Source of the DNA: a virus
DNA: 27,672 nucleotides
Virus record (IMG/VR): IMGVR_UViG_3300011126_000115
Location: 1-27,672 of that record
Direction: 5' to 3' (one strand)
Numbering within the stretch: position 1 is the first letter of the stretch; the number at the start of each line of letters is the position of its first letter. The notes beneath the pieces were generated by a model. It did no database searches. It was given only the letters and a program-made list of their open reading frames with translations, and was not told the origin of the DNA. Below are positions 6,583 through 25,776 of the stretch, piece by piece. Made by a program: the position numbers and the translations under genes.

Positions 6583-8904
6583 CTAGACCCCCGGACCGTA
6601 GACGGAGACGACTAGTTCGTCGAAGGAGCCGTGCGTGAAGATGAGCTTGCCTTGCCCGCCTTCCCACGTTGCGTCGGAGTCCCAGTAGTTCGAGGGTAGC
6701 ATACTCCACTTGCCGAGCCGTGCCATCGTGAAGCTAGTCCTCGAATAGGCGGGGGAGACGAACGCAAGGCACTCGCCGGTCGACTTCTCGTAGGCGAGCG
6801 TCAACTCCGGGGTCACGAACATCGCGTAGACGTCGAGCCCGGTGTTCTCCCAGTGTTGGCCGGTCTCCGAGAAGTAGAGGTCCTCCGACACGGTGGTCGC
6901 GATGAAGAGTTCAAGGGTCGCGCTCCATGCGGTTTGTATTAGGTAGGCTGCGGGGTCGGTGATGGTCGACGACCATGTTCCGTCGGCGTCCGAGGCGAAG
7001 TAGTTCTCGGTCGAGAGGTCGGTCGTCACGCATCCGCCGCCCGCGGGGGTGATACTTATCGAGACGATGCGGTTCGAGACGCCGCCGCCGATGGCGTTCG
7101 TCCATGTGGTTCCGTCGCTCGACTTTTCAATCCAGCCGAAGCCGGTGCCCGTGTCTTCGCCCACTGCGAACCACTGCCCGGAGACGGCGTCGTAGACGAG
7201 GTCGGTCACTTCGTCGATGTTATTGAACGTCGAGGTCGGCGAGACGGGGATGTCGGAGATGGAGTTGCTCGTCGAGAGGTGGAAGCCGTCGTCGAGCGCG
7301 ATGCCGACGTAGGTGCCATTCGACCGAAGCGGGGTCATGAGATGGTCGGCGGTGCATGTGCGAACGACTGCGACGCTCCACGTCCCATCGAGCCCGGTCG
7401 GGGAGGAGTATAGTTCGGCGTTGCCCGAGCGGTAGGTCGCGAAGTACCACATATCCGCGAGGGGGTCGTAGGTCATGTGGGTAGCGGTGAGCGCCGACGC
7501 GCCGAAGGTCTCGGTCAACTCTTGGTCGACGTTCGCGTAGGCTATGTCGGCTGCGTTTAGTTCGTAGTTGAACTTCGACCATGCCGCGAGGTTGTTTAGG
7601 ATGTAGTTCGTCGAGGCGTTGAAGTCGGTCTTCTCGCCGACGACGTGCCCGAGCGAGGGCGAAGCCGGGATAGTCTTGTCCGCGCCGCCGTCCGTCGCCC
7701 ACTCTGCGACGTGCGTCGGGGGAGTGATGGGGTCGTTGATTGCCATTATGATGCTCCGTAGCGCGCGATGGCGAGGTAGTTGGTAAGAGGGGTCGTAGGT
7801 GTAGAGGAGCTTGCCTTGCCCGCCTTGAATCTCGCAGAGTTTGAAGGTCGCGTTGATGACGGGGATGTCCTCCCCCGACATGGCGCCGAGGATGGTGTAG
7901 CCGTGATAGGATTGCTTCGGGTGCATCACGAAGACGTTGTCGGTCGTGTCGATGAGCCATGTGAACTCGGCGGTCGTGAAGATGTATTGCACTTGGTAGC
8001 CGGTGTCGGTCCACGTCACGCCGTCGGGTGTCGACCATAGGTTGTCCGAGATGTCGGTGCACAAGAACCTTTTGAGGGAGGGCGCCCAAATCGCGCGGTC
8101 GACTCGTGCGCTCGGGGAGACGGTTGCCGAGACCCACGAGACCGAGTTCGTCGAGACCTGCATCCCGTTCGCTTGGTCGTTGCCTGCGACGGAGATGCCG
8201 GTGTCGGGGTCAATCGCGAGGCTCATCACCTCGTCGTTTGTGTCGGTGTCCTTGATTGTCCAAGTCCCCGCGGGGTCGGTCGCGGTTGCGATGTGGCCGT
8301 CGACCCCGGCTCCCAAGCCAACGCAAATCCACAACTTCTCGATGGGGTCGTAGGCGAGTTCGTTGATAGTCGTGAGGGTCGCGACGTCGACGCCGACGAT
8401 GTTCATGTTCGCGATGGTGTTATCGGTCGAGACATAAACCTTGTCTTCGACGCCTACCACGAGTTGACCGCCGCCGACGACGGGGCGAGTCACGGGTGTA
8501 GAGAAGCCGACGTCCGTGTTGAGCGGAGCCGGTAGTTCGTTCCAAGTGATGCCGTCCTCGGAGTCGTAGACGTAGACCTCGTAGGGGGCGCCGATGCCGT
8601 CGCGAAGAACGGCGTACCATCTATTCACGACCTCGTCGTAGCGGAGGTAGAAGCCCGCGTTGTCGTCGTGCAAGGGGGTCGCGCCGGTTCGGTCGATGTT
8701 CCCGAAGGCGATGCGCCCGGCGAGAACCTGCGAGGCGAAGGAGCCCCACCCCGCCGCGGAGTGCATCACGTAGTTGAAGTGCGCGGGGGCGGGTGCGTCG
8801 CCGACGGTCCATCCGTCCGCGTTCAAGGTTGTGCCGGGGTCCGCCGAAAGTGCTTCGGTGTTCGTCGCCCATTCGAGGAGCTTGTCGGGGGGAGTGATTG
8901 CCAT
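6583..8904 (-). CDS. Receptor-binding/tail fibre protein made of two tandem propeller modules, 773 aa as read
   Basis: As written, one frame encodes two homologous units of about 386 residues. Unit 1 starts MAITPPDKLLEWATNTEAL and unit 2 starts MAINDPITPPTHVAEWATDG (residue 387). Each has a short N-terminal attachment part and then repeated beta strands with Asp-box-like motifs (SEDGITWNEL, TPDGVTWTDTG, SSDGTTWTN), as in sialidase-type beta-propellers. Each unit ends near GGQGKL. They are probably distal tail or baseplate adhesins that bind host surface glycan. The gene follows the baseplate genes, with a TAATG overlap at 8904. A one-base shift would end unit 1 separately at 7746 (see the junction entry), so this may really be two genes, 7746-8904 and 6583-7746. 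Confidence 0.75.
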   Translation of the reverse strand: MAITPPDKLLEWATNTEALSADPGTTLNADGWTVGDAPAPAHFNYVMHSAAGWGSFASQVLAGRIAFGNIDRTGATPLHDDNAGFYLRYDEVVNRWYAVLRDGIGAPYEVYVYDSEDGITWNELPAPLNTDVGFSTPVTRPVVGGGQLVVGVEDKVYVSTDNTIANMNIVGVDVATLTTINELAYDPIEKLWICVGLGAGVDGHIATATDPAGTWTIKDTDTNDEVMSLAIDPDTGISVAGNDQANGMQVSTNSVSWVSATVSPSARVDRAIWAPSLKRFLCTDISDNLWSTPDGVTWTDTGYQVQYIFTTAEFTWLIDTTDNVFVMHPKQSYHGYTILGAMSGEDIPVINATFKLCEIQGGQGKLLYTYDPSYQLPRHRALRSIIMAINDPITPPTHVAEWATDGGADKTIPASPSLGHVVGEKTDFNASTNYILNNLAAWSKFNYELNAADIAYANVDQELTETFGASALTATHMTYDPLADMWYFATYRSGNAELYSSPTGLDGTWSVAVVRTCTADHLMTPLRSNGTYVGIALDDGFHLSTSNSISDIPVSPTSTFNNIDEVTDLVYDAVSGQWFAVGEDTGTGFGWIEKSSDGTTWTNAIGGGVSNRIVSISITPAGGGCVTTDLSTENYFASDADGTWSSTITDPAAYLIQTAWSATLELFIATTVSEDLYFSETGQHWENTGLDVYAMFVTPELTLAYEKSTGECLAFVSPAYSRTSFTMARLGKWSMLPSNYWDSDATWEGGQGKLIFTHGSFDELVVSVYGPGV
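7744..7791 (-). other. Frame junction between the two receptor-binding units
   Basis: Unit 1 is read through into unit 2 as YDPSYQLPRHRALRSIIMAI. If one base is skipped at GACCCCTCT (about 7786-7791), unit 1 instead ends YDPLTNYLAIARYGAS with TAA at 7748-7746. That TAA overlaps the ATG of unit 2 as TAATG, the junction used by many genes here. The alternative end aligns with the end of unit 2 (FDELVVSVYGPGV) and gives unit lengths of 385 and 387 residues. The cause may be a sequence error, a real fusion, or a +1 slip at CCC-T. Confidence 0.7.
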
Positions 8905-9506
8905 TATGCCGTGCCTGCGAGGGAGCCGTTCTCGGTGCCATAAGTGGCACTCGACTCGGTGGTCTCCGCACTAGCGGAGAACTTGAAGACGTTCGCGTCG
9001 TCGCTCTCGGTGAGCGAGTAGACGTAGTGGACCTCGGTGCCCGCGGGGGCCGCACGGCGAAGGAGTGCCGCCGAGATAGCTTGGTCGGCGACGGTGCCCG
9101 AGACGGCGTGGTCGATGACGCGGACGAAGGAGGTCTTCGGGAAGAACTCGTAGTAGGCGACGTTCGTCGACGAGGGTGCCGCGGTGAGGAGTTGAATCAC
9201 GCGGACGAGGTCATACCATGTTCCGATGCTCGTGAGGATTGCAATCTCCGCGCGTAGCCGGAGACGGTAGGGTTCGTCGGTGAGCCCGCTGCGAGGAACG
9301 AGGAAGATTTGCCCGATGCGGTCGAGCCGGTCTTCCGTGGCGGTCTCGATGTCCCACTGCGAGTAGAGAGGAAACGCTGCGTCTTCGAGTTCTTGGGCTC
9401 GGTCGACGTAGGCTGCGACGAGGGCTTCGGTCTTCGCGCCGCCTTGAAGCGTGGTAAGTAGGCGGTCGAGTCCCTCGGAGGTGTAGTCGGTTTTGTTCGT
9501 GCTCAT
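8904..9506 (-). CDS. Baseplate protein, DUF2612/gpI-like, 200 aa
   Basis: The protein has the pattern of phage baseplate proteins related to DUF2612 and P2 gpI. An N-terminal helical part (ALVAAYVDRAQELEDAAFPL) is followed by TEDRLDRIGQIFLVPRSGLTD, where LDRIG..F...R is the family hallmark. Then come YRLRLRAEI and a helical segment IGTWYDLVRVIQLLTAAPSS. The last 40 residues are rich in Ser, Thr and Ala. In these phages it connects the J-like wedge ring with fibres. It follows the J-like gene by 3 bases and its stop overlaps the next ATG as TAATG. Confidence 0.72.
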   Translation of the reverse strand: MSTNKTDYTSEGLDRLLTTLQGGAKTEALVAAYVDRAQELEDAAFPLYSQWDIETATEDRLDRIGQIFLVPRSGLTDEPYRLRLRAEIAILTSIGTWYDLVRVIQLLTAAPSSTNVAYYEFFPKTSFVRVIDHAVSGTVADQAISAALLRRAAPAGTEVHYVYSLTESDDANVFKFSASAETTESSATYGTENGSLAGTA

Positions 9507-18589: not shown

Positions 18590-18946
18590 TTATTCGGGTG
18601 GGAGGGGGGTGGGCTTCGGTTCGATGGGGGTGAAGGTTCCGCCGCGGCGAGCTTGCCACACGCCTACCGCGTGAACGATGCGCGCGCGGACGGAGATGCC
18701 TCGGACCTCGACGTCGAGCCAGGGGAGCGAGGTGTCCGCGAGGAGCGCGTCTTCGAGTGCGGTCTTCGCGCCGAGCATAAGATACAACGCCCACTCGCCG
18801 GGGTACGCGGCGAAGAGGTCGTCGAGCTTCGAGCGGAGTTGCGCTTCGGTTTGTCCGAGGTCGTCCGCGAGTTGGATGAAGGTGTTCATCGGGTACGTTA
18901 GCCGCGACATGGTTGCCGACTCTTCTATGAAACTGAGGAAGTCCAT
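18590..18946 (-). CDS. Hypothetical protein, 118 aa
   Basis: The family is not recognised. It is a soluble helical protein (NTFIQLADDLGQTEAQLRSK, LDDLFAAYPGEWALYLMLGA, KTALEDALLAD). A strand-rich section follows (LPWLDVEVRGISVRARIVHA), with a proline-rich end (PIEPKPTPLPPE). The start at 18946 lies 1 base after the fibre stop with GGAG 13 bases before it; Met13 at 18910 with GAAGAG is an alternative. Between fibre and sheath genes it could be a small fibre or neck accessory. Confidence 0.65.
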   Translation of the reverse strand: MDFLSFIEESATMSRLTYPMNTFIQLADDLGQTEAQLRSKLDDLFAAYPGEWALYLMLGAKTALEDALLADTSLPWLDVEVRGISVRARIVHAVGVWQARRGGTFTPIEPKPTPLPPE

Positions 18947-18947
18947 G

Positions 18948-21900
18948 CTATAGGTAGTTCTCCAAAGGCGCCCAACGATAGTACATCATGTCGCCCGTTC
19001 CGTATTTCGGATAGCAAATCGCGCCGCCGCCCGGTGTGATTGTCATCTTCGGGCCAGTGGTTAGGAAGCCGTCCATCGAGGCGTGAGGACCCGTTCCCCC
19101 GTAGGTGTAGGAGCAGTGATTTCGACACCACTCGGTAGTCGTCTTCCCGCTCTCGTGGATGGAGTACCATACTTGGTTCGCGGTCACGGCTGCGAGGTTC
19201 GATTGAAACGCGCACTCGTCGCCCGCGATGAGCCAGTGACAGTCTTGCTTGTTGTAGAAGGTTCCCGTGTAGCTTGAACCGCGTTCGTTCATCCAAAGGT
19301 TTGGGGTGGCGTTGTCGTCGAGCCCCATCCAACAGTCGAGATGTTCGCAGTAGAAGATGCGTTCGAGTTCGTCGGTCCCGAGTTCGGTCGGGGTGTGATA
19401 AGACCACGTCGTGCTATTCGTTGTGAAGTAGAACTTTTGGTCGTAGGTTCCGCACACGACTGCGGTGTAGCCGCGCGTGTGGTCGTGCGCGATGTCGACG
19501 GGGTAGTCGCCCGAGAGGGGGTAGGTGCTGTAGACGTACCACGTCACGCCGCCATTTGTGCTGTATTCTAGTTTGGGGACCGTGCCCGCACTGTAGCCGC
19601 ACGCGATGAACTTCCCATGAATCGCGTCGAATATAATCCCGGTGCAAGTTGCGATGGAGTTGAAGGTGTGGGTCGAGAAGGAGAGGGTGGAGAGGTTCGT
19701 CGAGCGGTAGACGTTCGTCCCGTTGACGAAGAGAACCTCCTCGTCGCTCGCAGCCCATCCGCCCTGCGCGCCGACGGTGCCGGTGGTTCGGACGTTCGTC
19801 TTCGCGTTCCATGTCTTCCCGTCGGTCGAGGTCGAGGCGAAGATGTCGCCGAGGCTAACATCATACCACGACATGTAGTAGCGTTTCGCGTTACGGTCCC
19901 ATCCGATGTTCATGTTCGTGTCCGATGCACTGTAGGAAGTGATGGGTCCGTTGTTGACTTCGTAGACGCGCGCCATCGCGTGCGCTGCGTCGGAGCCCGA
20001 GAGCCGCGAGGCTTCCGAGAGGTTCTGCATCGCGCCCGTGTCGTCGGTGTGCATCCGGTCGGAGGGGGCGTTGTTGAGGACCCAGTCCTTACCTTCGCCA
20101 GCGGTTGACGTTGGTCCGGTCGCGCGCTCCTTCATGCGGACGGCTGCGGTCGCGTTCGAGAGGGAGAGTTCCCCCGAGATGTAGAGGAAGTCGGTGTTCG
20201 TGTTCATGTAGTAGCCGGTGCCCGAGACGTTCCATGTAGGGATAGCGTAGTTGGTCGGGCTTTGACTGCGGAGAACATACCAGTCGATGTCGAGGTCGTC
20301 GGTCCAGATAGGACTAGCGACTATCGCCGCCTGCGCCCACAACTCACACGAGCCCGCGATGGGGGTGTTGACGTTCGCCGCGCGTTCGGCGAAGAACGCC
20401 GCGTCTTGTTGCCGCGTGCCATCCTTGTCGACGTAGCGTGTGTGGTCGTCGTCGGCGAGTCCGCCGAGTGCGCCGTGGTCCGTGATGCCGCCCGCGAGGG
20501 TCCACACGTTCGCGTCGGTGGTCGCGTCGACGAGGGTCCACGCCTTGTCGCCGGTCGTGTCGATGTAGACGTGCCCGACGAGCTTGCCGTTACCAGTCGA
20601 GACGCCGGGGTCGCCCGAGCCCGAGAGGGCCGCGCGCGCCGTGTTCGTGACGACGTCCGCGTGGTCGGTGCCCGCCGAGGTGCGGTGGGTCGTGTTGAGT
20701 CCGACCGCGGCTGCTTCGCCCTTCAAGTCGAGCGCCGTTTGCGTCGCCGTCGAGATAGGCTTCGCCGCGTCTGAGGTGTCGTCGGCGTTGCCGAGACCGA
20801 CCTCCGCCTTCGTGACTGCGTGGGGGTTGCCCGTGACGGTGCCGCGGTGCGTGAGGTCGAGAGCGTTCGCTGCGGTGTTCGCCGCGACGTCTGCATGGTC
20901 GGAGCCGTCGCCCGCCGCGTGTGCGTCGCCTGCGCCGCCGACTTCGTCGGTGTTCTCTTCGTGGACCCAGTCCGAGCCGTCGTATAGGAGCCGGTCGTTC
21001 TTCGCGTAGTCGGTCGAGCCGTCCGCGCCGCCGAGGTCCTGCGTGCCTGCGGTGGTGACTGAGTAGGTGTCGCCCGAGGCGCCCGCGTAGGGGAGCGCCA
21101 ACGAGGGGGAGTTCGGGGTCGCGTTGTAGCCGCCCTTGAACTCTAGCGCCGAGACGGGGAGTTGCGACGAGGGGAGGAGCCCGGAGCCGTCGAGCGAGGC
21201 GTAGCCGCCCGCGATGCCCTTGTTCGCCGCGTCCTCCTTCAAGTCGAGTGCGGTTTGCTGCGCCGTCGAGACCGGCTTGTCGGCGTCGCTCGTGTCGTCT
21301 GCGGAGCCGAGCCCCACTTCGCTCTTCGTGACGGCGTGGGGGTTGCCCGTGACGGTTGTGCGGTGGTCGGAGTTGAGGGTCGCCTCGGCTTGCGATGCCG
21401 CGCCGAGGGTCGTGCGCGCGAGGGCTGCGGTGGCGTCGTCGACGAGGGTCGCCCCGAAGGCGGAGATGGTCGTGCTCGCGGGGAGGGCGAAGGTCTTCAA
21501 GTCCGCGTCGACCTCGGAGTCCATGAGGGCGCCCGCGGCGGTGACGTTCGCCGTGTCGGTCACGTCTGCGAGTGCCTCGATGCCGCCGAGCTTCGCCTTC
21601 TCCGCGTCGGTGTAGGCGTTCGTGTCGGCTTCGCCCTCGTAGGCGACCTTGATTTCCGCGCCGGTTTGGTCGGCGGTGGCGGAGTCCTCGATGGTGCCGA
21701 GCTTGGTCTTCTCCGCGTCGGTGTAGGCGTTCGTGTCGAGTTCCGCTTCGTAGGCGACCTTGATTTCCGCGCCCGTTTGGTCGGCGGTCGCCGCGGTCTC
21801 GATGCCTGCGAGCTTCGTGTTCTTCGTGTCGGTGTAGGCGTTCGGCTCGACCTCGTAGAGGGCCTTGATTTCCGCGCCCGTTTGGTCCGCGGTTGCCGAG

Positions 21901-23405
21901 GTCTCGATGGTGTCGAGCTTGGTCCCGTCGACCGAGAGGTCCCGCCCGTCGATGGTCGAGGAGGTCGCTAGCGGACCCGTGAGGGCGCGCGTGCCGTCCG
22001 CGAGGAGGTAGTGGGGGTGGTCGTCGTCGCCGAGCCCTGCGAGGTCGCCGTGGTCGGTCACGCCCTCGGACAAGAAGAGCTTGACGAACGCGGATTCGAT
22101 GGAGGTGAACGTGGTCGCGCTCTTCCGCACGACAATCTTCGCCGCGAGGATGCCGTGCCATCCGTCAATCTGCTCGGGGAGGTCGCCGGGGGGAGTCGCC
22201 GTTTGCGCCTGCGTGCCGGTGTAGTTGCCGCGCCCGTAGATGACGTAGATGTCTTGGTCCCACGGGGAGATGTAGACCCAGTGGACGCCGTAGCGGTTCG
22301 TCGAGAGGGTCGCGAGGGCGCCGGAGCCGTCGTCGTATTGGAGCGCGTCGATGGCGGTGTTCCCGCCCGAGAGGGTCCATCCGCCGACGCCGTCGCGGTA
22401 GAAGTCGAGGAAGGTCGAGGCGACCGAGGTGTCCTCCGCGGTGAAGGTGCCGCGGTTCAAGCCGAGGTAGAACTCGCCCTCGGTGAAGGCGAAGTTGAGG
22501 GTGCCCGTCTCGGAGGGTGCCGCGCCGGATGCGTGGGTCGTGCCGTCGACGTTGTAGAGTCGCCGGTTGACCTCGCGCGCGAGGTTGCTCTCGATGTAGC
22601 GGTAGGGGGTCGGGTGGAGGAAGGTGCCCGCGCGGGAGATGCCCGAGAGGAGGAGGTTCGTGTTCAGGTCCGTCGGGAGGGTGAGGGAGACCGCGACCTC
22701 GGGGGTGCCTGCGTTGTATTCGACGAAGACGTAGTTGATGGCGTTGTCGGTGAGGGCGAGCGAGGCGACCGCGGGCCAGTCGGTCGCGTAGACGCGCGAC
22801 TCGTCGGAGTCGGTTGCGCGGATGAAGCCGGAGCCCGTCGAGACCGCGACGGTGCCGTCGCCGTTATCGGTCACGAGCCCGCCGTGGTTGACGCCCACGC
22901 CGAGGGCGGTGTCGATGACCGCCTGCACGGTGTCATGGTCCGCCGCGCCGAGGGCTGCGATGTCGACCTGCGTTGCGTCGTAGTCGCCCGAGGTCGCCAC
23001 GACGTCGCCGATGCGCCCGAAGACGGAGGTCACGACCGCCGTGCCGATGGGGAGCCATACGGCTGCGCCTGCGGTCGCGTCGATGAGGACGAACGCGGAG
23101 GGGACGGTGTCGGTGTGAATCCAAAAGTCGCCGACGGAGTGCCCGTCGAGTTCGTCGTCGCCGACGGTGGGGGCGGTGCCCGAGGTGGTGACGGTTGTCA
23201 CGTTGCCGAGTTGGACCCATGTGGGGGTTGACACGTCCGCGAGGATGTGGTAGGAGTCCGCGTCGAGTTGATGCGCGAGCCGCCCGCCGTCGACCGAGGT
23301 CAAGGTGAGGGCGAGCCTCGCCGTCTCGTCCGCTACGGTCCATCGGACGAGGGAGCCGATGTCGGCGCCTGTTAGCAGGCTATGTCGTCGAGTGCCAAGT
23401 GCCAT
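18948..23405 (-). CDS. Large tail fibre protein with repeats and Asp-box propeller, 1485 aa
   Basis: The start MALGTRRHSLLTGADIGSLV overlaps the previous stop as TAATG; sequence upstream in frame is shadow. Residues about 1 to 450 are a mixed beta region. At about 500 to 615 there are three tandem repeats of 35 to 37 residues of the form ATADQTGAEIKVAYE...NAYTDAEKTKLGTIE, a shaft motif of phage fibres. Two further 46-residue repeats (TVTGNPHAVTK.EVGLG.ADD, TSDA.KP.STA.QTALDLK) are the common phage fibre repeat. From about residue 1140 the end is beta-rich with Asp-boxes (STDGKTWN, STNGGVTWY) like a sialidase-type propeller, the likely receptor-binding tip. It lies between neck and sheath genes. 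Confidence 0.88.
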   Translation of the reverse strand: MALGTRRHSLLTGADIGSLVRWTVADETARLALTLTSVDGGRLAHQLDADSYHILADVSTPTWVQLGNVTTVTTSGTAPTVGDDELDGHSVGDFWIHTDTVPSAFVLIDATAGAAVWLPIGTAVVTSVFGRIGDVVATSGDYDATQVDIAALGAADHDTVQAVIDTALGVGVNHGGLVTDNGDGTVAVSTGSGFIRATDSDESRVYATDWPAVASLALTDNAINYVFVEYNAGTPEVAVSLTLPTDLNTNLLLSGISRAGTFLHPTPYRYIESNLAREVNRRLYNVDGTTHASGAAPSETGTLNFAFTEGEFYLGLNRGTFTAEDTSVASTFLDFYRDGVGGWTLSGGNTAIDALQYDDGSGALATLSTNRYGVHWVYISPWDQDIYVIYGRGNYTGTQAQTATPPGDLPEQIDGWHGILAAKIVVRKSATTFTSIESAFVKLFLSEGVTDHGDLAGLGDDDHPHYLLADGTRALTGPLATSSTIDGRDLSVDGTKLDTIETSATADQTGAEIKALYEVEPNAYTDTKNTKLAGIETAATADQTGAEIKVAYEAELDTNAYTDAEKTKLGTIEDSATADQTGAEIKVAYEGEADTNAYTDAEKAKLGGIEALADVTDTANVTAAGALMDSEVDADLKTFALPASTTISAFGATLVDDATAALARTTLGAASQAEATLNSDHRTTVTGNPHAVTKSEVGLGSADDTSDADKPVSTAQQTALDLKEDAANKGIAGGYASLDGSGLLPSSQLPVSALEFKGGYNATPNSPSLALPYAGASGDTYSVTTAGTQDLGGADGSTDYAKNDRLLYDGSDWVHEENTDEVGGAGDAHAAGDGSDHADVAANTAANALDLTHRGTVTGNPHAVTKAEVGLGNADDTSDAAKPISTATQTALDLKGEAAAVGLNTTHRTSAGTDHADVVTNTARAALSGSGDPGVSTGNGKLVGHVYIDTTGDKAWTLVDATTDANVWTLAGGITDHGALGGLADDDHTRYVDKDGTRQQDAAFFAERAANVNTPIAGSCELWAQAAIVASPIWTDDLDIDWYVLRSQSPTNYAIPTWNVSGTGYYMNTNTDFLYISGELSLSNATAAVRMKERATGPTSTAGEGKDWVLNNAPSDRMHTDDTGAMQNLSEASRLSGSDAAHAMARVYEVNNGPITSYSASDTNMNIGWDRNAKRYYMSWYDVSLGDIFASTSTDGKTWNAKTNVRTTGTVGAQGGWAASDEEVLFVNGTNVYRSTNLSTLSFSTHTFNSIATCTGIIFDAIHGKFIACGYSAGTVPKLEYSTNGGVTWYVYSTYPLSGDYPVDIAHDHTRGYTAVVCGTYDQKFYFTTNSTTWSYHTPTELGTDELERIFYCEHLDCWMGLDDNATPNLWMNERGSSYTGTFYNKQDCHWLIAGDECAFQSNLAAVTANQVWYSIHESGKTTTEWCRNHCSYTYGGTGPHASMDGFLTTGPKMTITPGGGAICYPKYGTGDMMYYRWAPLENYL
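20725..20854 (-). repeat. Tail fibre repeat, copy 2 of 2
   Basis: This encodes TVTGNPHAVTKAEVGLGNAD then DTSDAAKPISTATQTALDLK, about 43 residues. It is the same repeat as the copy at about 21237-21366. It is the widespread phage fibre shaft repeat, not a separate element. Confidence 0.75.
21237..21366 (-). repeat. Tail fibre repeat, copy 1 of 2
   Basis: This encodes TVTGNPHAVTKSEVGLGSAD then DTSDADKPVSTAQQTALDLK. Together with the copy at 20725-20854 it forms part of the fibre shaft. Confidence 0.75.
21570..21898 (-). repeat. Three tandem 105 to 111-base repeats within the tail fibre gene
   Basis: Each encodes ATADQTGAEIK.(A/L)YE.E..NAYTD.(E/N)K(T/A)KL..IE, 35 to 37 residues. They form the coiled shaft section of the fibre. 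The near-identical DNA of units 2 and 3 (period 111) suggests recent duplication or recombination. Confidence 0.75.
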
Positions 23406-23974
23406 TAGCTCGTGATTTCCTCGTCGAGTTCGGTGCCGTCGTAGGTGAGGTCGAACTCGGAGTCGATGCCCCCGGTGTAGTTGACGTTCTTGATGTAGCT
23501 TCCGTCGTGGAGGGGGTCGGCGAAGGACGCGCGCAGTGAGATGGTGAGGGGGAGGTCCACGCGGGAGACCATACGCCCGGACCACTCGTAGTCGGAGTCG
23601 GCGAGGTCGCCCGTGTCGACGAGGGCGAGGTCCGCCGCTCGGAGGAGGTCGAAGGAGGTGGTCGAGTGCGCGAGGGTGCGGAACTCTTCCGCGTACTGAC
23701 GCGCGGAGCCGCCGAGCCGTTGGTCGAACGTGATGAAGGAGACCTGCACGGGGAGCAGTCGAACGCCTACCACACGCACGGAGGTCGTGTCGGGGCCTGC
23801 GCCGTCGTAGGTTTGGATTCGCTCGTCGTGCCCTAGCTTCGACATGTTCTCCGCCTGCGCGAGGATGAAGGCGCCCATGTGGAGCTTCTGCGGTTCGCGC
23901 TCCCACTCGACGGGGAGACTCGAAGCCGATTCAATCCAAGCGGTGAGGGCGGTTTGTACGGTGGTTAGATTCAT
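23405..23974 (-). CDS. Neck/tail terminator gp12-like protein, second paralogue, 189 aa
   Basis: The start MNLTTVQTALTAWIESASSL at 23974 overlaps the stop of the first paralogue as ATGA. The protein is similar to its neighbour over almost the full length: LPVEWEREPQKLHMGAFILA, KLGHDERIQTYDGAGPDTTS, SFITFDQRLGGSARQYAEEF, DYEWSGRMVSRVDLPLTISL and ASFADPLHDGSYI are shared with few changes. The family is the neck terminator/gp12-like proteins that cap tail or connector. The C-terminus differs (NVNYTGGIDSEFDLTYDGTE), so it may bind another partner. It is the gene before the fibre. Confidence 0.75.
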   Translation of the reverse strand: MNLTTVQTALTAWIESASSLPVEWEREPQKLHMGAFILAQAENMSKLGHDERIQTYDGAGPDTTSVRVVGVRLLPVQVSFITFDQRLGGSARQYAEEFRTLAHSTTSFDLLRAADLALVDTGDLADSDYEWSGRMVSRVDLPLTISLRASFADPLHDGSYIKNVNYTGGIDSEFDLTYDGTELDEEITS

Positions 23975-24546
23975 TCGGGGACCAAGTTGTCGGAGTTGAT
24001 GTCGAGGACGGGGACGCCGTATTCGTCGACGATGATTTCCTCGGCTTGTGGTTCGGTCACGGTGCCGATGTAGGAGCCGTCGTGCAAGGGGTCGGCGAAG
24101 GATGCGCGGAGCCCGAGGGTGGTCGAGAGTTCGACCTGCGAGACCATGCGACCGGACCACTCGTAGTCCGCCTCGACGAGGTCGGAGGTGTCGATGAGGG
24201 CGAGGTCGGAGGTGCGGAGGTAGTCGAAGGAGGAGGTCCAGTGCGCCCGCGCGCGGAAGTTCTCGGCGTACTGCCGAGCCGAGCCGCCGAGCCGTTGGTC
24301 GAACGAACGGAAGGATAGGCGGAGCGTCATGCGACGCACGCCCACGACTCGGACGGTGGTGTTATCGCCATCGTCGCCGTATGTTTGGATTCGCTCGTCG
24401 TGCCCGAGCTTGACGATGGGGCCAAGGTATGCTAGCACGAAGGGTCCGGTATGGAGTTTTTGAGGCATCCGTCCCCACTCGACGGGGAGCCCTGAGAAGG
24501 TCTCGACCCATGATGTGAGTGCGGTTTGTATGGTGCCGAGGTTCAC
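23971..24546 (-). CDS. Neck/tail terminator gp12-like protein, first paralogue, 191 aa
   Basis: This protein is probably part of the neck ring linking head and tail. The sequence contains LPVEWGRMPQKLHTGPFVLA, KLGHDERIQTYGDDGDNTTV, DQRLGGSARQYAENFRARAH and LRASFADPLHDGSYIGTVTE. That matches, from memory, the phage neck terminator gp12-like domain. The start overlaps the gp10-like gene as ATGA. Its C-terminal tail (EEIIVDEYGVPVLDINSDNL) differs from the following paralogue, while the rest aligns well, so the pair arose by tandem duplication. Confidence 0.76.
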   Translation of the reverse strand: MNLGTIQTALTSWVETFSGLPVEWGRMPQKLHTGPFVLAYLGPIVKLGHDERIQTYGDDGDNTTVRVVGVRRMTLRLSFRSFDQRLGGSARQYAENFRARAHWTSSFDYLRTSDLALIDTSDLVEADYEWSGRMVSQVELSTTLGLRASFADPLHDGSYIGTVTEPQAEEIIVDEYGVPVLDINSDNLVPE

Positions 24547-25019
24547 TTCTTCCGCCCAACTTCGTAGACGATAGCCGCGAGCATCGTCGCGGTGTCGATG
24601 AGGGGGATGTCGGAGCCCTTCGCCGCGATGGTCGACTCCGCGTTCGGCGGGGGGATGCGCGACATGATTCGCTTGATGACCGAGTTCCGGTAGACGACGC
24701 CGCGCTTCGAGAGGGCGACCTTCATGCTCTCGGACGACATGAGAACACGCAGGACGTCGGTCTCCATGTTCTTCGCGATGAGGTCGATGTTCCCCGCTAC
24801 CCAGTCATGAACGAACGACCGCGCGGGGGCGGTCATCGTGCCGTACTCGTTGAAGAAGGCGATGTCGCCGATGGTGCGCTCGTTCGAGTTCGGGTGCTCG
24901 GGGGCGCCGCTCTTCTCGGTGATGCCGAGCTTCATCTCCGTCTCGGCGATGTCGATGAGCTTGCGGTTCATCCCACGCCCCCACTTCTCGACGACCTTGT
25001 AGGTGGCTCCGACCGCCAC
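24543..25019 (-). CDS. Head-tail connector/minor head protein, HK97 gp10-like, 158 aa
   Basis: The motif IGDIAFFNEYGTMTAPARSF followed by VHDWVAG is typical of HK97 gp10-like and virion morphogenesis proteins, which contain A..NEyGt...PaRpF. An N-terminal helix (RKLIDIAETEMKLGI) and a C-terminal section (NSVIKRIMSRIPPPNAESTI, DIPLIDTATMLAAIVYEV) also fit, as these end with LidTg.L..si.yev. It completes the connector so that head and tail can join. It lies between the DUF4054 gene (TAGTG-type overlap at 25019) and the neck terminator. Confidence 0.82.
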   Translation of the reverse strand: MAVGATYKVVEKWGRGMNRKLIDIAETEMKLGITEKSGAPEHPNSNERTIGDIAFFNEYGTMTAPARSFVHDWVAGNIDLIAKNMETDVLRVLMSSESMKVALSKRGVVYRNSVIKRIMSRIPPPNAESTIAAKGSDIPLIDTATMLAAIVYEVGRKK

Positions 25020-25321
25020 TAGAGAAGCATCCCGCGCCTAGCTACTAGGGGGAGGATGTTCTGCTCGAAGGCTACGGAGTAGACGGATTCGCCGTCGCCC
25101 GAGGTGAGTTGTAGTTGCTTGCCGTAGGGGGAGAGTGCAAGGAGGTGCGCCGCCTTGTAGCCGACCGCCACGTTGTAGAGTGCGTTGCCCGCCGACTCGC
25201 CGAACGCGAGTTCGTCTAGCATGGCTTCCGCCTCGGCGAGCTTGACGTCGATGTAGGCTTCCGTCATCTCGGAGAACTCGGGAAAGTCGAGGATGAACTC
25301 CGCGTAGAGGGGGGCCGCCAT
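25019..25321 (-). CDS. DUF4054-like head-completion protein, 100 aa
   Basis: The pattern FILDFPEFSEMTEAYIDVKL then AEAEAMLDELAFGESAGNAL and VGYKAAHLLALSPYGKQL (F...FPeF......i...l..A......w.......A....aaHlla) is typical of DUF4054, a small connector/neck protein family related to HK97 gp6. It ends in ILPLVARRGMLL. The ATG overlaps the preceding stop as TAATG. Full length for the family. Confidence 0.83.
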   Translation of the reverse strand: MAAPLYAEFILDFPEFSEMTEAYIDVKLAEAEAMLDELAFGESAGNALYNVAVGYKAAHLLALSPYGKQLQLTSGDGESVYSVAFEQNILPLVARRGMLL

Positions 25322-25776
25322 TATGCCGCCGTGTGAACGATTGCGAGGACGGTGGTGTAGGCTACTTCGGCTGCGCCGATGGTGAGGTCGATGGTCTCGC
25401 CGGTCGGGTCCGCGTCGAGGGAGAGTTCGAAGACCGTGACGAGGGTCGTGGTCGCGAGGGCGAGGATGGCGTCGCTCATCACGCTAGCGTCGACGTCTGC
25501 GCCGAGGGCGAGCCCGTTGACGTAGGGACGCACGATAGCCTCGACCATAGCTTCGGTCGTAGTGCCCGTGGTGGTGATGGCGAAGGTCACTAGCTTCTCG
25601 GTGTTATCCGGGTTTGCGCGCGTGGCTGCTTCGGCGGTGCTTGCGCCCGCGGCTTTGAGGGTGTCGTAGAAGGCGACCTCGGTGGCGACGCTCGCGGAGT
25701 GCGATGCGTTTTGTAGTGCTTTGAGGTCGGCGTTCGAGTCGACGACGTAGACTGCGGTGGGGGTAGCAAATGCCAT
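25321..25776 (-). CDS. Hypothetical head-region protein, 151 aa
   Basis: The family is not recognised. The start is MAFATPTAVYVVDSNADLKA. It is an Ala/Thr-rich protein with helical parts (SVATEVAFYDTLKAAGASTA) and beta-rich parts (TEKLVTFAITTTGTTTEAMV, TTTLVTVFELSLDADPTGE). There is no membrane segment or signal peptide. AGGAG lies 9 bases before the ATG. It is the first gene after the terminator behind the major capsid gene and is coupled to the DUF4054 gene. It is a likely minor virion or head-decoration protein. Confidence 0.68.
   Translation of the reverse strand: MAFATPTAVYVVDSNADLKALQNASHSASVATEVAFYDTLKAAGASTAEAATRANPDNTEKLVTFAITTTGTTTEAMVEAIVRPYVNGLALGADVDASVMSDAILALATTTLVTVFELSLDADPTGETIDLTIGAAEVAYTTVLAIVHTAA

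Follow-up and report, generated by a model that had tools for sequence, protein, structure and literature searches.

A long fibre gene following a duplicated tail terminator in a DUF3383-type myophage: a candidate neck-attached fibre

The window, i.e., the whole 27,672-nucleotide stretch analysed here, belongs to a virus record of 39,615 bases (IMGVR_UViG_3300011126_000115), and its minus strand reads as a myophage structural module (Table 1). From the head side, the genes run as cement protein (PF22758, 4.2e-19), major capsid protein (MCP; PF09950, 7.2e-24), a 151-aa gene, a DUF4054 adaptor, a neck 1/tail completion protein, two tail terminator copies (t1 and t2) and a long fibre. On the tail side, a 118-aa gene, a DUF3383 sheath, tube, assembly chaperone, a short tape measure (411 aa), baseplate genes and a 773-aa fibre (fib2) follow. 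The 1485-aa fibre is encoded by the longest ORF of the window, with no longer ORF listed elsewhere in the record, and is a real frame, confirming the original prediction that this is the largest structural gene. The predicted placement between neck and sheath holds on the neck side, where the fibre gene comes directly after t2, but it does not lie immediately before the sheath because the 118-aa ORF intervenes. No PHROG or Pfam family match was found for this small ORF; as a guess, its product could be a fibre chaperone or linker. A separate baseplate adhesin at the usual place, which had also been proposed, is present as fib2. We also noticed that the gene between MCP and DUF4054 encodes 151 aa here (25321-25776) and 249 aa in the relative L089 (8485-9234), where by eye the product has a doubled-domain look resembling the baseplate-J C-terminal domain. 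Trypsin-like serine proteases are encoded twice in this phage (window 5530-6201, minus, PF13365 4.5e-21; L001 10561-11277, minus, PF00089 3.2e-10) and once in the relative L101 (733-1542, plus, PF00089 1.1e-18), with N-termini that look signal- or lipoprotein-like by eye.

Table 1 Features of the window and departures from direct terminator-sheath adjacency in the IMG/VR survey. Coordinates of survey loci are those of the respective locus.
Feature	Coordinates	Strand	Basis or description
DUF4054 head-tail adaptor, 100 aa	25019..25321	minus	family match
Neck 1 / tail completion protein, 158 aa	24543..25019	minus	phrog_222 1.7e-24
Tail terminator copy 1 (t1), 191 aa	23971..24546	minus	PF23961 score, survey HMM
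Tail terminator copy 2 (t2), 189 aa, faster-changing	23405..23974	minus	survey HMM, predicted fold; start/stop-coupled to fibre
Fibre, 1485 aa	18948..23405	minus	ATG at 23405, stop ends 18948; tail-fibre family match
Fibre residues 1-274, N-terminal part	22584..23405	minus	appears co-inherited with neck genes; 52% identical to L089
Fibre residues 491-676, shaft, three ATADQTGAEIK repeats	21378..21935	minus	common to many other phage fibres
Fibre residues 1135-1387, tip region	19245..20003	minus	related to each half of fib2
118-aa gene, fibre-sheath interval	18590..18946	minus	position only
Tail sheath, DUF3383, 563 aa	16833..18524	minus	DUF3383 4.9e-28; phrog_205 9e-92
Tail tube, 143 aa	16390..16821	minus	phrog_280 1.5e-39; post-sheath position; matches post-sheath gene in survey loci
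Baseplate-end fibre (fib2), 773 aa	6583..8904	minus	after DUF2612 gene; N-terminus matches L101 baseplate-end fibre
L155	6070-9960		1296-aa ORF: terminator (7.6e-10) fused to two GH5 cellulase domains (2.5e-98)
L149	6720-9446		908-aa ORF: C-terminal terminator (1.2e-12), fn3 (8.8e-6); directly precedes sheath
L133			524-aa ORF: terminator (5.7e-11) and 350-aa C-terminal part
L104			5'-truncated terminator ORF, then 296-aa gene and SASA carbohydrate esterase (9.1e-25)
L004			collagen fibre (6.5e-11) and extra sheath-like gene in slot
L141			terminator with C-terminal part; 25.1 bits vs cut-off 27 (Pfam)
L125			second sheath-like gene in slot
L106, L139			about 100-aa insertions inside terminator

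The gene that had been described as a duplicated neck gene is indeed a pair, and both copies are tail terminators. t1 and t2 are 67% identical over 164 columns, and their coordinates show four-base overlaps between t1 and t2 and between t1 and the neck gene. The fibre start, in turn, overlaps the t2 stop by one base (TAATG); this start/stop and overlap coupling would fit co-production of the terminators and the fibre. Against Phage_tail_terminator_9 (PF23961), t1 scored 29.2 bits (cut-off 27) and t2 26.9 bits, just under the cut-off, and an HMM built from survey terminators, with this phage and L089 excluded, matched both (t1: E 2.8e-21; t2: E 3.5e-21). The predicted model of t2 (47-sequence alignment, pLDDT 88) found solved neck/gateway chains among its best matches, with VIA-align Z of 16.6 for Sf14, 16.5 for Pa193, 15.3 for E217 and 14.4 for XM1. 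Family score and, for t2, fold thus place the pair in the terminator class. A comparison of the terminator profile with the sequences of solved structures returned designed proteins only, which we took as chance.

With L089 as outgroup, t2 has accumulated more changes than t1 (30 t2-only vs 15 t1-only, p = 0.036). At 31 columns t1 equals t2 and both differ from L089, which fits a terminator duplication after the split from L089, and the third-position identity of the two copies (101/185) indicates that the duplication is not recent. In E217, the C-terminal arm of the gateway joins the sheath (PMC10329688). We dropped the idea that t2 has lost a C-terminal sheath-binding arm: the tails of t1, t2 and L089 differ, but by eye the motif is retained in t2.

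A stopper ring is not recognisable at this neck. A stopper/head-closure (Hc1) HMM, which found 17 of 18 isolate regions at E ≤ 0.01, gave no match at E ≤ 1, whether in the window plus L001 or in L194 plus L095, and there is no room for a stopper between neck and terminator in the window (24543-25321) or in L089 (9234-10001). Either another neck protein has taken the role, or the gene is too diverged, or it lies outside an incomplete record. The locus therefore departs from the Felix O1/PAK_P1-type DUF3383 module, in which Hc1, terminator, sheath and tube form an unbroken row: terminator, sheath and tube are present, Hc1 was not found, and the fibre and the 118-aa gene interrupt the order.

Shaft and repeat homology in PHROG (14 families matched; best 1.9e-31, tail fiber protein) identifies the 1485-aa product as a tail fibre; against Pfam it had no match at E ≤ 0.01. 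Its shaft is common to other phages, with 54% identity to podophage Lau218 over residues 491-639, 77% identity in contigs L006 and L007 over residues 523-677, and up to 88% identity in the best segments (L070). Among solved structures, there were five PDB sequence matches at E ≤ 1; the best stretch of none of them covers residues 1-500, and no solved neck spike is among the matches listed. The predicted model of residues 1-274 (pLDDT 34) was too poor for a structure search.

The two adhesins appear to share the same kind of tip on different anchors. fib2 is a tandem duplication inside one ORF (its halves score 301, shuffles 44 ± 7), although no off-diagonal match appeared when it was compared with itself by BLAST at E 1e-3. 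Fibre residues 1041-1485 score 111 and 104 against fib2 (shuffles 41 ± 7 and 47 ± 8), whereas residues 1-140 score 29 and 30, equal to shuffles (about 30). The tips are thus related while the fibre N-terminus is unlike that of fib2, which argues that the anchors differ; the first 60 residues of fib2 instead match the baseplate-end fibre of L101 (30%, 2e-7).

Synteny in relatives had been suggested as a check, and the order of terminator then fibre is kept in L089 (IMGVR_UViG_3300038552_000129), a 26.6 kb contig that ends inside the fibre. Its order of MCP, 249-aa extra gene, DUF4054, neck, one terminator and fibre start matches that of the window, with identities of 58.8% for cement, 66.1% for MCP, 76.8% for DUF4054, 52.3% for neck, 58.9% for t1, 52.2% for t2 and 51.6% for fibre residues 1-274. 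Because the gene order is the same and the fibre N-terminal part is as diverged as the neck protein, the fibre has probably long been co-inherited with the neck block. Taken with the wide sharing of the shaft, this co-divergence suggests that the N-terminal part travels with the neck genes and that the shaft is an exchanged module. The fibre arrangement does not require t2, given that a single terminator is seen in L089. L089 is the sole relative found with this neck block. No further members of the lineage were found by searches with t1 alone, with MCP alone, or for genome contigs with terminators and with the sheath; searches with the terminator pair, the fibre N-terminus and the MCP pair returned only L089, L094 as a weak match to the fibre, and four relatives of the MCP (L195-L198, 25-29% identity). 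The nearest sheaths (L002 and L126, 95% identity) are on contigs that start inside the sheath and are uninformative on the slot between terminator and sheath. The sheath of L101 (66% identity) is preceded by a trypsin-like protease and small genes, and no terminator was found in the 14 kb of L101; the sheath therefore opens the tail module there, making the slot a module boundary. More generally, the terminator-sheath junction may be a boundary open to insertions.

We surveyed this junction in IMG/VR with a sheath-alignment scan, taking the best 80 of 221 confirmed loci plus L004, which gave 81 loci. In 80 of these the sheath piece exceeds 200 aa, and at 90% identity these 80 form 68 clusters. 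We found a terminator domain ahead of the sheath in 75 of the 81 loci; five of the other six start inside or just before the sheath, and the sixth is L101. In 60/75 loci, a single complete terminator (≤220 aa) adjoins the sheath ORF, from 120 bases of overlap to 46 bases apart. Six more have truncated terminators, adjacent at the contig end in L123, L138, L140, L166 and L173 and with a 276-base gap in L147; L138 was dropped from the departures as a truncated read-through. The remaining nine are departures (Table 1) and include terminators covalently fused to other domains. The fused ORF of L149 also matches DUF5123 (2.6e-6, under its cut-off); its resemblance to a beta-helix is an impression by eye. 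The gene downstream of the L133 fusion matches Gp80, podophage GP4 fiber I (1.2e-46). The truncated terminator of L104 falls under the Pfam cut-off (0.002) and is matched by the survey HMM (1.1e-17); L104 and L141 are similar at E 0.007. A LamG/lectin identity, suggested by sequence appearance for the C-terminal parts of L141 and L133 and for the 296-aa gene of L104, was set aside, as no such Pfam/NCBIfam domain was found. L159, L162 and L163 were likewise rejected as slot cargo and left uncounted, because the terminator HMM showed that their terminator adjoins the sheath and that an Ig/TIG gene lies upstream of it; in L159, the gene in question is a 558-aa ORF (7785-9461) that combines TIG, Ig and chitobiase C-terminal domains and immediately precedes the terminator. 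Adjacent pairs of sheath-like genes were observed in L004 (9335-11456), L125 (2054-4675) and L179 (1944-4118).

Two other junctions served as controls. The sheath-tube junction showed four gaps over 400 bases and no fusion in 77 loci, and the stopper-terminator junction four such gaps in 64 loci (L149, and L159/L162/L163, which are one sheath cluster with the Ig/TIG gene). In post hoc tests, departures of any kind did not differ significantly between the slot and the sheath-tube junction (9/75 vs 4/77, Fisher P = 0.16), and fused or inserted terminators were more frequent in the slot (6/75 vs 0/77, Fisher P = 0.013). These contrasts were drawn after the cases had been seen and are only suggestive.

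Isolated phages were compared in a non-random sample of 20 regions with a tail sheath gene. PB1 was taken by its accession, and the other 19 came from similarity searches with this sheath or with the VH-8 fibre; TaPaz, AciJM_313 and D'Alembert were chosen for their match to the VH-8 fibre. In 13/20 (ctsHD2, IFTN9, Felix O1, PAK_P1, RHph_TM26, Barba14A, vB_YenM_12, Aci05, LSL4, rv5, Ro1, 683R1 and PB1), a gene of terminator size lies directly before the sheath; the terminator HMM missed rv5 among them, and PB1 was outside that run. A fibre lies between terminator and sheath in 4/20 (VH-8, TaPaz, AciJM_313 and D'Alembert), so the slot position is not unique to the present phage. In D'Alembert the slot also holds a second gene, whose annotation reads tail protein with depolymerase domain; Pfam gave no match for it. 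A 323-aa gene adjoins the sheath of 1.063.O on its upstream side, and phiA050 carries no annotation upstream of the sheath. In Aeromonas phage 2L372D (L184 2025-2942), the interval from the terminator position to the sheath holds a gene annotated 'endonuclease'. The 13 records matching the first sheath gene of VH-8 also match the VH-8 fibre, and by coordinates the fibre match precedes that sheath gene by no more than a few kilobases in all 13. In Acinetobacter phage Ab15, however, a sequence related to the N-terminus of the VH-8-type slot fibre follows the baseplate genes, at the end of that module, a counter-example that removes gene position as proof of location. Overall, the fibre-in-slot arrangement is uncommon yet recurrent across lineages. 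The other slot and fusion cases are analogies, because identity to t1/t2 is only 19-24% for the fused terminators of L155, L149 and L133, and this fibre has no similarity below E 0.6 to the six slot proteins of L004, VH-8, TaPaz, AciJM_313 and D'Alembert.

Published neck fibres offer structural precedents. In Vibrio phage XM1, six gp40 trimers sit on gp4 and the terminator gp5, a second set is on the baseplate, and gp40 has been proposed to sense and orient (PMC10457771). The present phage resembles XM1 as a myophage with a matching terminator fold and, putatively, with both neck and baseplate adhesin sets. XM1 gp40 differs from the present fibre in having 839 aa, an Ig-like anchor and a Det7-like spike body, and is numbered far from gp5/gp6. 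Since gp40 also leans on gp4, and our HMM search found no gp4-like stopper gene in the window, the anchor here would have to differ from that of XM1. Shigella phage Sf14 is likewise a myophage whose terminator fold matches. It carries neck whiskers in two sets, one chain of which touches the first sheath turn (PMC11821841); in contrast to the present locus, its whisker genes gp30/gp31 are numbered beside the portal gene and attachment is via the adapter gp37. Anabaena phage A-1(L), a myophage, has five bead-chain neck fibres (gp82-81-80) on a 15-mer neck protein, with genes far from the other structural genes, unlike here (PMC10966104). The collar of Milano is without fibres (PMC10491603). TaPaz gp58 and the fibres of VH-8, D'Alembert and AciJM_313 share the gene position between terminator and sheath. 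These slot fibres, in addition to their dissimilar sequence, are shorter (366-525 aa) than ours; collagen repeats, a further difference, were detected in AciJM_313 (43.9 bits) and scored 27.0 in TaPaz (cut-off 27.2). VH-8, TaPaz and D'Alembert also have two sheath genes each, unlike this phage. gp58 is counted as one of two fibre proteins of Acinetobacter phage TaPaz, in an article whose main text lacks the words neck and collar (PMC8228797), and the available text on D'Alembert does not place the fibre in the virion (PMC9331655). Within the entries listed by our searches of the open-access literature, neither terminator fusions nor a fibre in the terminator-sheath slot was described.

Taken together, we lean towards reading the 1485-aa protein as a fibre attached to the terminator or neck, which partly supports the original prediction by favouring its neck or collar branch. 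Start/stop coupling to t2 and the L089 gene order link it genetically to neck proteins, and co-inheritance in L089, terminator fusions, isolate slot fibres and the published necks of XM1 and Sf14 all point the same way. A covalent link between terminator and cargo occurs in other phages only; these fusions make the neck the better bet. Gene position is indirect evidence, and the neck reading is weakened by XM1 (from its gene numbers) and A-1(L), where neck-fibre genes are remote from terminator and sheath. We infer that the long fibre, probably a trimer, would use its N-terminal part to dock onto the tail-terminator ring at the neck, with the derived copy t2 as the probable site. From there it would project outward or down the tail and present a second host-contacting tip, related to that of fib2. 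It might act as proposed for XM1 gp40, making early surface contact to orient the particle before the baseplate commits and reinforcing the head-tail joint. A broader idea is more speculative, and we advance it only tentatively: the terminator ring of DUF3383-type myophages could be a neck display platform, repeatedly equipped with fibres, spikes or glycoside hydrolases through slot genes or fusions, with t2 serving here as an anchor specialised for the fibre, at a neck where no stopper ring is recognisable.

The main alternative, possible but in our view rather unlikely, is an ordinary long tail fibre on the baseplate, whose gene merely occupies a cargo-tolerant junction between head/neck and tail modules, so that its position is uninformative. 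Such a junction can be a module boundary, as in L101, the slot of 2L372D holds a non-fibre gene, and those of L125 and L004 hold second sheath-like genes; the relative of a VH-8-type slot fibre at the baseplate end in Ab15 and the kinship of the fibre tip with the baseplate-end fibre tip also fit a baseplate fibre. This is countered by the covalent fusion of cargo to the terminator in L155, L149 and L133, by the fibre's apparent co-inheritance with the neck genes, and by an N-terminus unlike that of fib2, the one that does match the L101 baseplate-end fibre.

We consider it improbable that the fibre decorates the sheath, head-proximal tail or capsid rather than the terminator ring. The gene does lie just ahead of the sheath, with one 118-aa gene intervening, and one Sf14 whisker chain contacts the first sheath turn (PMC11821841); yet no sheath-fused fibre appeared among the survey departures read, and what look like sheath genes in the slots of L125 and L004 are additional copies of the sheath. 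The other branch of the original prediction, a gene insertion, fared worse. Recent insertion was rejected on co-divergence with L089 and codon composition, although the junction may tolerate cargo, and an accidental, recently acquired foreign fibre gene with no virion role is very improbable. The shaft common to other phages and a GC of 0.57-0.61 over the last third of the gene would fit it, but the 1485-aa frame is intact and start/stop-coupled, its GC3 (0.87) falls within the 0.80-0.93 seen for the other measured genes, and the fibre is in the same place in L089 at about 52% identity.

If the neck-attached reading is true, the neck, in addition to the baseplate, could bear host-contacting fibres and enzymes that cut polysaccharides, with consequences for host range and for the way a particle comes to rest on a capsule. 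In annotation, the slot fibres described here are entered as ordinary tail fibres; under this reading, gene position together with fusions could instead predict neck display across phages, and the L155 and L149 fusions make the idea of neck display directly testable.
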